Shown here piece after piece: positions 1 to 2,587 of a DNA stretch of 64,000 nt. Both the position numbers and the translations under genes were made by a program. Source of the stretch: Oscillatoriales cyanobacterium CG2_30_40_61 (GTDB taxonomy: Bacteria; Cyanobacteriota; Cyanobacteriia; Cyanobacteriales; Microcoleaceae); contig MNYZ01000084.1 of assembly GCA_001873365.1 (NCBI GenBank), positions 1 to 64,000 on the forward strand. The letters are read 5' to 3'. Position 1 is the first letter of the stretch; each line of letters opens with the position of its first letter. A model generated the notes under the pieces. It saw only the letters and a program-made list of their open reading frames with translations. It was not told where the DNA came from and did no database searches.

Positions 1-46
1 GGATGGGGGCCACCACGGGGGGATGGGGGCCACCACGGGGGGATGG
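1..46. repeat. 20-bp tandem repeat, just over two copies
   Basis: A G-rich 20-base unit (GGATGGGGGCCACCACGGGG) occurs twice in a row and begins a third time before the sequence changes. It runs up to the stop codon of the CobE-like gene on the minus strand, so it lies just downstream of that gene. The array may continue left of the window. I see no coding potential. Confidence 0.9.
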
Positions 47-49
47 CCC

Positions 50-514
50 CTACAAAGAATAAAACAGCCCTGGGGTTTTCGGTTGGACTTGAGCAATGGC
101 CACTGTTGACCCTCGATAAATTTGCTTAGAAACCAGTAAGGTGTTGACTCCGGCGGCTTGTAAGGCGGCGGCTTCGGCTACACTCGGTGTTCCGACTGCT
201 GTTACGACCCCCGCAGAGGGGTTAGGAACCTCCACAGCCCGCAATACTTCTGAGGAGAAGGTGCGTAAGGGCCAATTTTTGGCTTGGCACAATTCCACTA
301 ACCCGGGTTCATCCGCTTTTATATCTAAAGTAGCAATGCCAGCGATCGCATTTTCCTCTAAATTATACTGTTGTAAAACCTGCTGAATGGCGGTTTCAAT
401 CAAACTTCTTGGGGTTAAACGTCCACAACCGACACCGACCCATAACACCTGGGGAAACCACTGGCTTTCAGGAGTATCAAATCTTACCATCTTTTGCAAT
501 TGGGAAAAAATCAT
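50..514 (-). CDS. Cobalamin biosynthesis protein, CobE / CbiG C-terminal domain type
   Basis: A 154-aa protein matching the stand-alone CbiG C-terminal (CobE) domain. The opening segment WVGVGCGRLTPRSLIETAI is the family hallmark, followed by GIATLDIKADEPGLVELC and a Ser/Ala/Gly-rich stretch ending in GVNTLLVSKQIYRG. In known pathways this domain helps open the delta-lactone ring of cobalt-precorrin-5A (CbiG) or acts as CobE in corrin ring contraction. It is cytosolic, with no signal peptide or membrane segment. It ends against a 20-bp tandem repeat. Another corrin gene, cbiET, lies about 4 kb away on the same strand but is not in the same operon. The family is clear; whether a separate CbiG N-terminal protein exists cannot be seen here. 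Confidence 0.85.
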   Translation of the reverse strand: MIFSQLQKMVRFDTPESQWFPQVLWVGVGCGRLTPRSLIETAIQQVLQQYNLEENAIAGIATLDIKADEPGLVELCQAKNWPLRTFSSEVLRAVEVPNPSAGVVTAVGTPSVAEAAALQAAGVNTLLVSKQIYRGSTVAIAQVQPKTPGLFYSL

Positions 515-679: not shown

Positions 680-1468
680 ATGGATCAGAGAACAGAATTA
701 TTATTAAAACTCGATATTTTTAAAGAATTTTATACCGAAGAAATCGAAACCATTAGCGAATATTTTTCGATTCATAAGTTCTTTGATTTACAGGTAATTA
801 TGCCCAAAACGGGTCAGGATTCCTCCTTTGGAATTATTCTGTCTGGAGAGGTCAGTTTAATTGATGATCAGATGCAAAATCCCAGTCGGACGAAGGGAGA
901 TATTTTAGGGGAAATGGCATTTATTCAAGGCTTTCGATCGGATTTTATTGCGGCTAGTGATGGGGCGATCGCGATTATGACCTTTGATGATATTGAAAAG
1001 CTCAAACTAAAACACCCTTATTTAGCGGTTAAATTAGTTGATTTTGTTACCCATAATTTGGTTAATAATTTACGCAAAAATGACAAAAAAGACAATACAG
1101 AAATCCTGGTATTATTAGCCGATGATCATTTGTTTTCAGACTTGATTAATTTAATCAAGGATCATCTTCATATTATCAATAAATTTTCAATCTTTACCTC
1201 CGAAAAATTAAAAATAACCTTAGAAGAAAACACAAATTTAACCATTAGTCAAGTAATTGAACCCCAGAGTTTGATTTTGGGTGAAACTGCTATTGGTTAT
1301 CAAATTCTGTTAGATCAAGTTAAAGCCATTATGTACCTCCGAGATCCGGTAAAAGTCGAATCTAACCCCGCATCCGTTGAAGCCCTATCGCGGTTATGTG
1401 ACTTACAACAGGTTTTATTTGCAACTAATTTATTAACGGCAAATGCTATTTTTCAGTATTTAGAATAA
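680..1468 (+). CDS. cNMP-binding domain fused to a degenerate methylglyoxal-synthase-like domain
   Basis: A 262-aa protein with two parts. Residues about 10-130 resemble a cyclic-nucleotide-binding (CAP_ED) beta-barrel, with GDILGEMAFIQG then R86 where the phosphate-binding cassette has Gly-Glu and Arg. There is no helix-turn-helix after it. Residues about 141-262 align with methylglyoxal synthase: EILVLLADDH at the first strand, LGETAIGYQILLDQVKAIMY at the phosphate-loop region, RDPV at 221-224, and ALSRLCDLQQVLFATN near the end. By my alignment to the E. coli enzyme, the catalytic Asp in GGDQQ is Glu (E202), the first His is Asp, and the later His is not conserved. I infer a ligand-sensing or regulatory MGS fold rather than an active enzyme. 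The next gene starts 27 nt downstream, so they are probably co-transcribed. Confidence 0.7.
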   Translation: MDQRTELLLKLDIFKEFYTEEIETISEYFSIHKFFDLQVIMPKTGQDSSFGIILSGEVSLIDDQMQNPSRTKGDILGEMAFIQGFRSDFIAASDGAIAIMTFDDIEKLKLKHPYLAVKLVDFVTHNLVNNLRKNDKKDNTEILVLLADDHLFSDLINLIKDHLHIINKFSIFTSEKLKITLEENTNLTISQVIEPQSLILGETAIGYQILLDQVKAIMYLRDPVKVESNPASVEALSRLCDLQQVLFATNLLTANAIFQYLE

Positions 1469-1495: not shown

Positions 1496-2587
1496 ATGAA
1501 TCAACGAGTTTTAATCCTAGGAGGCAGAGGAAGAATTGGCAATGGTGTCGCCGAAGATATAGCCCAATATACCGCCGCCGATATTACCGTTACTGGACGA
1601 AAATTTACGGAAAATAGGGCAATAAATCCCCGATTTCAACAGTTAGAATTAGATTTAGCAGATCATAATCAATTAGAAAATGCGATCGCTAATTCCGATT
1701 TAGTCATCCACTGTGCCGGGCCGTTTCAATCTCGAGATTTAGGAGTTTTAAAAACCTGTATTCAACATCATGTTAACTATATTGATGTCAGTGATAATCG
1801 AGAATTTACCCGCCGGATTTTAGACCATTCCCAATCCGCTAAAAATGCCGGAGTCACCGCTATTATTAATACGGGTATTTTCCCCGGGATTTCTAATAGC
1901 ATGGTGCGTCAAGGTGTGGAACAATTTGATCAAGTCGAAAAAATCCACTTAAGTTATGTAGTAGGCGGGTCTGGCGGGGCTGGAATTACCGTGATGAGAA
2001 CCACCTTTTTAGGGTTACAATCACCTTTTCAAGTCTGGATAAACGGACAATGGCAAACAATTAAACCCTATAGCGAACGGGAAACCATTGAATTTCCTCC
2101 CCCCTACGGAAAAACCGGGGTTTATTGGTTTGATATGCCAGAATGTTTCACCTTAGTAGACTCTTTTCCCGTAAAAACTGTGATTACCAAATTTGGGACA
2201 ATTCCCGATTTTTATAATTATTTGACTTGGAGTGTTGCCCATTGGTGGCCAGAAAGTTGGCTAAAAAATCCCGCCGTAATTGAGTTTTTATCCCAGGTCA
2301 GTTATCGGATGACCAATGTTACCGATCTTTGGAGTGGAATTGGGGTAGCAGTTCGTTCCTGTGTTACCGGAATTAAACAGGGAAAAACCATTGATTTTTG
2401 TTCTACAATTGTTTATGAAAATACTGCTAAAATTGCCGGAATTGGCGCCGGAATGATTGCGGAACTTTGCTTAAAGGGTGAACTACAAAAGCCCGGAGTT
2501 TGGCCCGTAGAACAGGCAGTTTCAACTCCCTTATTTGCAGCCGCCCTGAATCAACGTGGCGTTAATATTCAAACCAATTTTAATTAG
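1496..2587 (+). CDS. Saccharopine dehydrogenase-like NAD(P)-binding oxidoreductase
   Basis: A 363-aa protein starting with a Rossmann nucleotide-binding fold (VLILGGRGRIGNGVAEDIA), then the family pattern DLVIHCAGPFQSRDLGVLKTCI and YIDVSDNREFTR, which match the saccharopine dehydrogenase/reductase NADP domain. The central half carries NTGIFPGISNSMV, seen in the same family. Many such proteins act on substrates other than saccharopine, so the reaction is unknown. AGGAGATG lies 6-13 nt before the ATG. It follows the cNMP/MGS gene by 27 nt on the same strand, suggesting one transcript and perhaps a shared metabolic role. Family is confident, substrate is not. Confidence 0.75.
   Translation: MNQRVLILGGRGRIGNGVAEDIAQYTAADITVTGRKFTENRAINPRFQQLELDLADHNQLENAIANSDLVIHCAGPFQSRDLGVLKTCIQHHVNYIDVSDNREFTRRILDHSQSAKNAGVTAIINTGIFPGISNSMVRQGVEQFDQVEKIHLSYVVGGSGGAGITVMRTTFLGLQSPFQVWINGQWQTIKPYSERETIEFPPPYGKTGVYWFDMPECFTLVDSFPVKTVITKFGTIPDFYNYLTWSVAHWWPESWLKNPAVIEFLSQVSYRMTNVTDLWSGIGVAVRSCVTGIKQGKTIDFCSTIVYENTAKIAGIGAGMIAELCLKGELQKPGVWPVEQAVSTPLFAAALNQRGVNIQTNFN

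Follow-up and report, generated by a model that had tools for sequence, protein, structure and literature searches.

A conserved cyanobacterial fusion of a cyclic-nucleotide-binding domain to a degenerate methylglyoxal synthase domain, and its relatives with apparently intact sites

Herein, we describe a cyanobacterial protein in which a cyclic-nucleotide-binding domain (cNBD) is followed by a domain with the fold of methylglyoxal synthase (MGS) whose catalytic and phosphate-loop residues have been replaced. Its gene lies in a stretch of 64,000 nucleotides from Oscillatoriales cyanobacterium CG2_30_40_61 (the window, by which we mean the whole stretch analysed). To judge from its sequence, the window protein is a conserved pseudoenzyme and probably a catalytically dead branch of a family of cNBD-MGS fusions whose other members have an apparently intact site. 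We regard this family, which appears to be new here, as the larger result.

Our explanation of the window protein, to which we give slightly less than even odds (a probability of about 0.47), is that the dead descendant of a cNBD-MGS enzyme now serves as a cyclic-nucleotide-responsive, non-enzymatic, protein-binding scaffold. Its ancestor would have been an enzyme of this build whose methylglyoxal production was controlled by a cyclic nucleotide (cNMP) on the N-terminal barrel. In the window lineage, the MGS domain would have lost both catalysis and phosphate binding and have persisted as a folded module that is probably oligomeric. The present protein would then act without chemistry, as a cNMP-responsive scaffold for a putative protein partner, with the cNBD altering the interaction between the two. 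An earlier note on this DNA had proposed a new kind of two-ligand sensor. Its combination of a cNBD with an inactivated MGS fold stands, but the protein is better seen as the dead-site member of a wider cNBD-MGS architecture, other members of which look enzyme-like.

The fusion protein and its two folds

The features of the window discussed below are the following.
680..1468, plus strand: cNBD/pseudo-MGS fusion gene (open reading frame with ATG start, 262 aa; profile, PDB, and model matches)
680..1042, plus strand: N-terminal cNBD fold, aa 1-121, a beta barrel followed by helices (Pfam, predicted model, PDB fold matches)
1043..1102, plus strand: helical inter-domain linker, about aa 122-141 (in the model, a helix at 113-134 and a loop after it)
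1103..1465, plus strand: C-terminal MGS-like domain, aa 142-262, with catalytic and phosphate-loop residues replaced (profile, PDB, site table)
1496..2587, plus strand: dehydrogenase with a saccharopine-dehydrogenase-type NADP domain (Pfam), 27 bp downstream of the fusion; a widespread independent gene
50..514, minus strand: open reading frame with a CbiG C-terminal domain, divergent and upstream; a conserved neighbour of the fusion, not proposed as a functional part

The presence of a cNMP barrel and an MGS-like C-terminus in one protein, first read from the sequence, is confirmed by comparing the predicted model with PDB structures, the profile matches lying below their cut-offs. For the C-terminal half, the NCBIfam profiles TIGR00160 (E 4.4e-14, aa 143-260, 52.7 bits, equivalog cut-off 146.9) and NF003559 (E 3e-13, 49.7 bits, equivalog cut-off 84) both match in this way, solved MGS sequences from the PDB match with a best E of 5.9e-12, and the Pfam MGS profile PF02142 has no match even at E 10. 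The Pfam cNBD profile PF00027 reaches 21.1 bits (E 3.1e-4), below its cut-off of 27.5. The AlphaFold2 model, for which the input was the window protein together with 15 related proteins, has a mean pLDDT of 80.8 and a pTM of 0.60. Superposition recovers the MGS fold: residues 140-262 align over 121 residues with 1wo8, the MGS of T. thermophilus (Z 19.3, rmsd 1.7), and the MGS structures 1wo8, 6f2c, 8u2v, and 1b93 score Z 17.4-19.3. The first part of the model resembles the cNBDs 3gyd (Z 16.2, rmsd 3.4 over 144) and 3mdp (Z 16.1).

Pfam and NCBIfam searches of the protein found no DNA-binding domain and no HTH, in agreement with the initial reading. The cNBD fold is shared with 3gyd, the CRP/FNR regulators, and the MscS-cNBD channels; unlike the latter two groups, the window protein has no HTH or channel match and carries an MGS-like output domain. 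A CRP/FNR transcription regulator was rejected on account of the missing C-terminal HTH and the MGS-like C-terminal half. The window cNBD also weakly matches Pycsar cNBD-TIR effectors (PADLOC E 7.5e-6, aa 23-114); a role as such a defence effector was set aside, as the match covers the cNBD half only, no TIR is matched, and the other half is MGS-like. A Pfam match to a CRISPR WED domain (16.2 bits against a cut-off of 27) was taken as chance. At the contig start, window positions 1-46 hold head-to-tail repeats of a GC-rich 20-base unit.

Loss of the MGS site under purifying selection

Site positions are given in E. coli numbering. According to PMC7843640, D71 is the catalytic base of MGS, assisted by H19 and H98, and the phosphate is held by K23, T45-G49, and S65. 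In the window protein, H19 has become D148, D71 has become E202, and H98 has become N229, which matches the earlier claim that the Asp of GGDQQ is Glu and that both histidines are changed. That list was correct as far as it went and too short: K23 (now F152), T45-G49 (now S-E-K-L-K, 174-178), S65-G66-P67 (now P-Q-S, 195-197), and D101 (now S232) are altered as well, and D91 is unchanged.

These changes are conserved. Twelve positions (H19, K23, G46, T47, T48, G49, G66, P67, G69, D71, H98, and D101) are altered in all ten same-genus proteins, T45 in nine, S65 in eight, and D20 in five, and A18, G70, and D91 are unchanged in all ten. Three more distant proteins of the window type (L011, L012, and L013, with identities to the window protein of 52%, 46%, and 39%) also lack the site, mostly by way of different residues. 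Common to all 13 window-type proteins are the change of H98 to Asn and, in the alignment, one additional residue ahead of what was GGD, as well as an early C-terminal end. The site table leaves out L031 and L056-L058, which duplicate the proteins L014-L016, as well as three truncated or frame-broken rows (L039, L072, and L073), and lists L044 separately.

Among the ten genus orthologues, the Nei-Gojobori median dN/dS is 0.141 for the cNBD (44 pairs) and 0.114 for the MGS part (45 pairs), the pairs being non-independent. The low ratio over the MGS part indicates that the dead domain is maintained by selection.

The earlier suggestion that the protein senses phosphate or a sugar phosphate has become improbable and was rejected as the leading idea, because most of the phosphate-contact residues are gone (K23 and G46 to G49 in ten of ten, with T45 and S65 following closely). 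Among the alternatives to a scaffold, the one that survives best, though unlikely, is that the former active-site pocket was rebuilt for a different small molecule (phosphate excepted), making the protein a true two-ligand sensor. The replacements D148, F152, K176, K178, E202, and N229 are each fixed in ten of ten genus members, and the purifying selection on the MGS domain would suit such a pocket too. Outside the genus, however, the replacements mostly differ, N229 excepted: across L011, L012, and L013, H19 is D, G, and N, and D71 is A, T, and E. Unshared replacements of this kind are expected of a released site rather than of a new common pocket.

Relatives with an apparently intact MGS site

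Full-length proteins of the window type occur in 13 of 59 relatives, namely in all ten same-genus genomes and in three further ones. Three others of the 59 (G015, G030, and G035) encode a cNBD-MGS fusion in which TGTTG, GGD, and HPHHAD are intact. A contig scan using one intact fusion found 18 loci, three of them from Trichodesmium, six from Synechococcus, and nine from MAGs labelled Latescibacterota, Gemmatimonadetes, Verrucomicrobia, Crocinitomicaceae, and proteobacteria, labels that may be wrong; the Crocinitomicaceae-labelled row clusters with a cyanobacterial row in the MGS tree. When 386 genomes from the phylum of the window were searched with a profile, with up to six candidates scored in each, at least 12 matches extended over both domains (four in the genus) and at least two further ones covered just part of the cNBD. 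The window genome belongs to the same family as the genomes with the Trichodesmium contigs.

All 23 intact fusions (three of three from the Trichodesmium group and 20 of 20 others) retain all residues of the site table but D20, in whose place they have Asn; L044, shown apart, deviates at two TGTTG positions. The four intact fusions that were scanned score 145-149 bits with NF003559 (cut-off 84) and 137.5-144.4 bits with TIGR00160, slightly below its cut-off of 146.9. Four other window-type proteins score 52-69 bits with NF003559. Because their sites are kept and their NF003559 scores exceed the cut-off, the intact fusions are probably real MGS enzymes, provided that D20N is compatible with activity. 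We infer that they are active and that they bind, and are controlled by, cNMP, and consider them candidate cyclic-nucleotide-controlled MGS enzymes.

The intact fusions (in Trichodesmium, marine Synechococcus, and several MAGs) have the same two domains in the same order as the window protein. They retain TGTTG, SGPxGGD, DPLSxHPHHAD, K23, and the C-terminal tail, all of which the window type has lost; the extra residue before the former GGD and the earlier end of the window type likewise set it apart from them. Over almost the entire length, the three Trichodesmium-group fusions share 31-33% identity with the window protein, and 15 aligned intact-site fusion proteins show 24-31% identity to it. 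Structure alignments omit L064 (which contains an X), L072, and L073, and retain L066 (also with an X). The predicted model of an intact fusion has a pLDDT of 79.3 and a pTM of 0.48. MgsA (EC 4.2.3.3) has a fold like that of the window C-terminus; unlike MgsA, the window protein lacks the catalytic residues and most phosphate contacts, and is fused to a cNBD.

If the intact relatives are gated by cNMP, a second messenger would directly set how much of a toxic by-product of glycolysis marine cyanobacteria make. The window protein would then be a naturally occurring counterpart, with the receptor-enzyme build and the selected fold still there and the chemistry gone. We found no paper on a cNBD-MGS fusion in the open-access literature, to which our search was confined. 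Leptospira papers were discarded, since the passages concerned name separate genes and not a fusion; a transcriptome table in one paper likewise names separate genes.

One fusion or two

The MGS tree comprises 62 domains (eight further near-identical rows were omitted) and has long branches. The window type forms one group (100/98). A branch with 97/94 support unites it with the intact fusions, and on the other side of that branch lie E. coli MgsA and the MGS-DAGK rows, which include one free-standing MGS. The cNBD halves of all five window-type proteins tested have their best match among the cNBDs of intact fusions, in a comparison set where fusions outnumbered channels, and with near ties between fusion and channel cNBDs for L011 (47.8 vs 43.9 bits) and L013 (48.9 vs 47.8 bits). 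In the AU test, a grouping of the window MGS with MGS-DAGK domains gives p 0.162, and one with the genus's own MGS-DAGK gives p 0.058, so that neither is rejected at the 0.05 threshold.

A separate origin of the window type, by an independent fusion, is possible on these data; a single fusion is favoured because the domain order is common to both and the similarity extends over the full length. The loss of the site is the derived state, as a nearly full site is common to the intact fusions, to E. coli MgsA, and to those MGS-DAGK proteins that come from other families.

Cyclic-nucleotide binding and its gene context

The phosphate-binding cassette of a cNBD canonically contains a Glu and an Arg. 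The window protein keeps the Glu (E78) and has Phe at the canonical Arg position, with an Arg adjoining (register by eye), and its cassette loop (aa 80-84) has a pLDDT below 50 in the model. Binding of cNMP by the window protein is doubtful, because the cassette Arg is replaced and the loop is not resolved in the model. Control by cNMP would draw its support from the relatives, the window protein itself giving none.

It is therefore conceivable, although again unlikely, that the barrel no longer binds cNMP either and that the protein serves for structure or protein binding alone. The low PF00027 score would fit, as would the Phe or Leu that six proteins (L001-L006, the window included) have at the canonical Arg position. 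On the other hand, the cassette Glu is invariant among 16 aligned sequences, an Arg lies one residue past the canonical position in all ten genus members and in the canonical position in L007-L013 (these registers, too, were set by eye), and the window's own genome yields 18 matches to class III cyclases above cut-off. We keep to the cNMP-responsive scaffold as our preferred reading.

Judged by eye, 17 of the 23 intact fusions have the cassette Arg (six lack it) and 20 have the Glu (three lack it). Neighbouring genes were checked at 22 loci, with flanks of 1.5 to 6 kb. An MscS-type channel gene is found at seven (L013, L019, L066, L068, L070, L072, and L073) and a CHASE2-cyclase gene at five, all from marine Synechococcus (L067, L068, L070, L072, and L073); Pfam confirmed the domain content of three of the channels and two of the cyclases. 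Four of the five cyclase loci have a common gene order and thus amount to few events. At L072 and L073 the fusion gene is broken, and the intact fusions of L068 and L070 lack both the cassette Arg and Glu, so that L067 is the only one of the five to combine a cyclase neighbour with a whole fusion gene and a whole cassette.

Two loci deserve separate mention. At L013 (10-2322, minus strand), a fusion of the window type is followed, 18 bp past its stop codon and on the same strand, by an MscS-type channel gene with a cNBD, and the two genes likely form one operon; the window's own genome has a channel 44% identical to this one on another contig. At L071 (2188-5004, minus strand), a gene joining a class V aminotransferase to two cNBDs adjoins an intact cNBD-MGS gene.

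The neighbouring dehydrogenase

The earlier note had also named the adjacent dehydrogenase as a possible target, here understood as control through direct binding. The two genes lie on the same strand, 27 bp apart, and every one of the ten genus members, as well as L011, has cbiG, the fusion, and the dehydrogenase in that order. Nonetheless, we hold this to be very improbable. Dehydrogenase matches at E 1e-30 or better occur in 44 of 59 relatives. Thirty of these 44 loci were read, and at 11 of them the gene lies within 1.5 kb of a fusion; it was seen to adjoin the fusion only in the window's genus and G011. In addition, G013 (98% complete) has the fusion and no dehydrogenase match at E 1e-30. 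With the gene so widespread and mostly located elsewhere, the adjacency is best taken as a local arrangement. At L012, cbiG is present, but a GCS2-family gene lies downstream.

As a minor observation, the cbiG neighbour of the window and of L002-L005 aligns only over about the C-terminal domain, and that of L006-L011 over the greater part of the 477-aa stretch taken from L012.

MGS-DAGK proteins and the MGS complement of the genome

Cyanobacterial MGS-DAGK proteins (of the L018 type, in which Pfam confirmed the DAGK domain) likewise join an MGS domain to another module, which is a DAGK-type lipid-kinase domain instead of the cNBD of the window protein. A match of this type is present in nine of ten genus members, the exception being G005, which is 73% complete. 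The nine proteins read are 47-50% identical to L018 over 425 aligned residues; all nine have lost H19, K23, T45-G49, H98, and D101, and D71 is kept. Both MGS architectures of the genus are thus found without an intact site.

In the window's own genome, PF02142 scores above cut-off in two frames only, of 533 and 1145 aa, which from their length would be PurH and CarB, and has one more match far below cut-off (13 bits). TIGR00160 matches only the MGS-DAGK gene (86.3 bits) and the window gene (55.5 bits), both below 146.9. No intact MGS was found with these two profiles in this genome, which is 99% complete.

Within the window's family, the MGS part is degenerate in much of the cyanobacterial MGS-DAGK group, with Tyr in place of H19 in 11 of the 16 rows that come from other genera. 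Outside the family, seven MGS-DAGK rows (one of them a free-standing MGS) have nearly all tabulated sites intact. The pattern amounts to a lineage-wide decay of methylglyoxal synthase sites. In Synechocystis, PMC11897720 reports less methylglyoxal during mixotrophic growth in cells without sll0036, a gene that is probably of the MGS-DAGK type, as far as the primer ends given there allow.

A more far-reaching proposal would make cNBD-MGS a second-messenger-gated MGS, and its dead member in the genus an adaptor that co-assembles with the dead MGS of MGS-DAGK, so placing a lipid-kinase-type enzyme under cNMP control in a cell that itself has no MGS. We offer it as a long shot.

Decay and residual activity

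That the fusion gene is decaying toward loss is highly improbable: G025 and G029, from another genus, retain only remnants with several in-frame stops, but the reading frame is open in all ten members of the window's genus, with dN/dS of 0.11-0.14 in both halves. Least credible of all is that the window protein continues to make methylglyoxal by means of a re-arranged site. The retained fold and D91, the acidic Glu at the D71 position, and the survival of T45 in one and S65 in two of the ten genus members speak for it; against it are the replacement of both histidines, the base, K23, and G46-G49 in all ten and the scores below the NCBIfam MGS cut-offs.

Lastly, what is left of an L013-like cNBD-MGS gene, interrupted by several in-frame stops, lies at L019 (1462-2055) and L024 (1459-2052), in two genomes of another genus. 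The remnant at L019 is followed by an MscS-type channel gene that is cut by the end of the locus.
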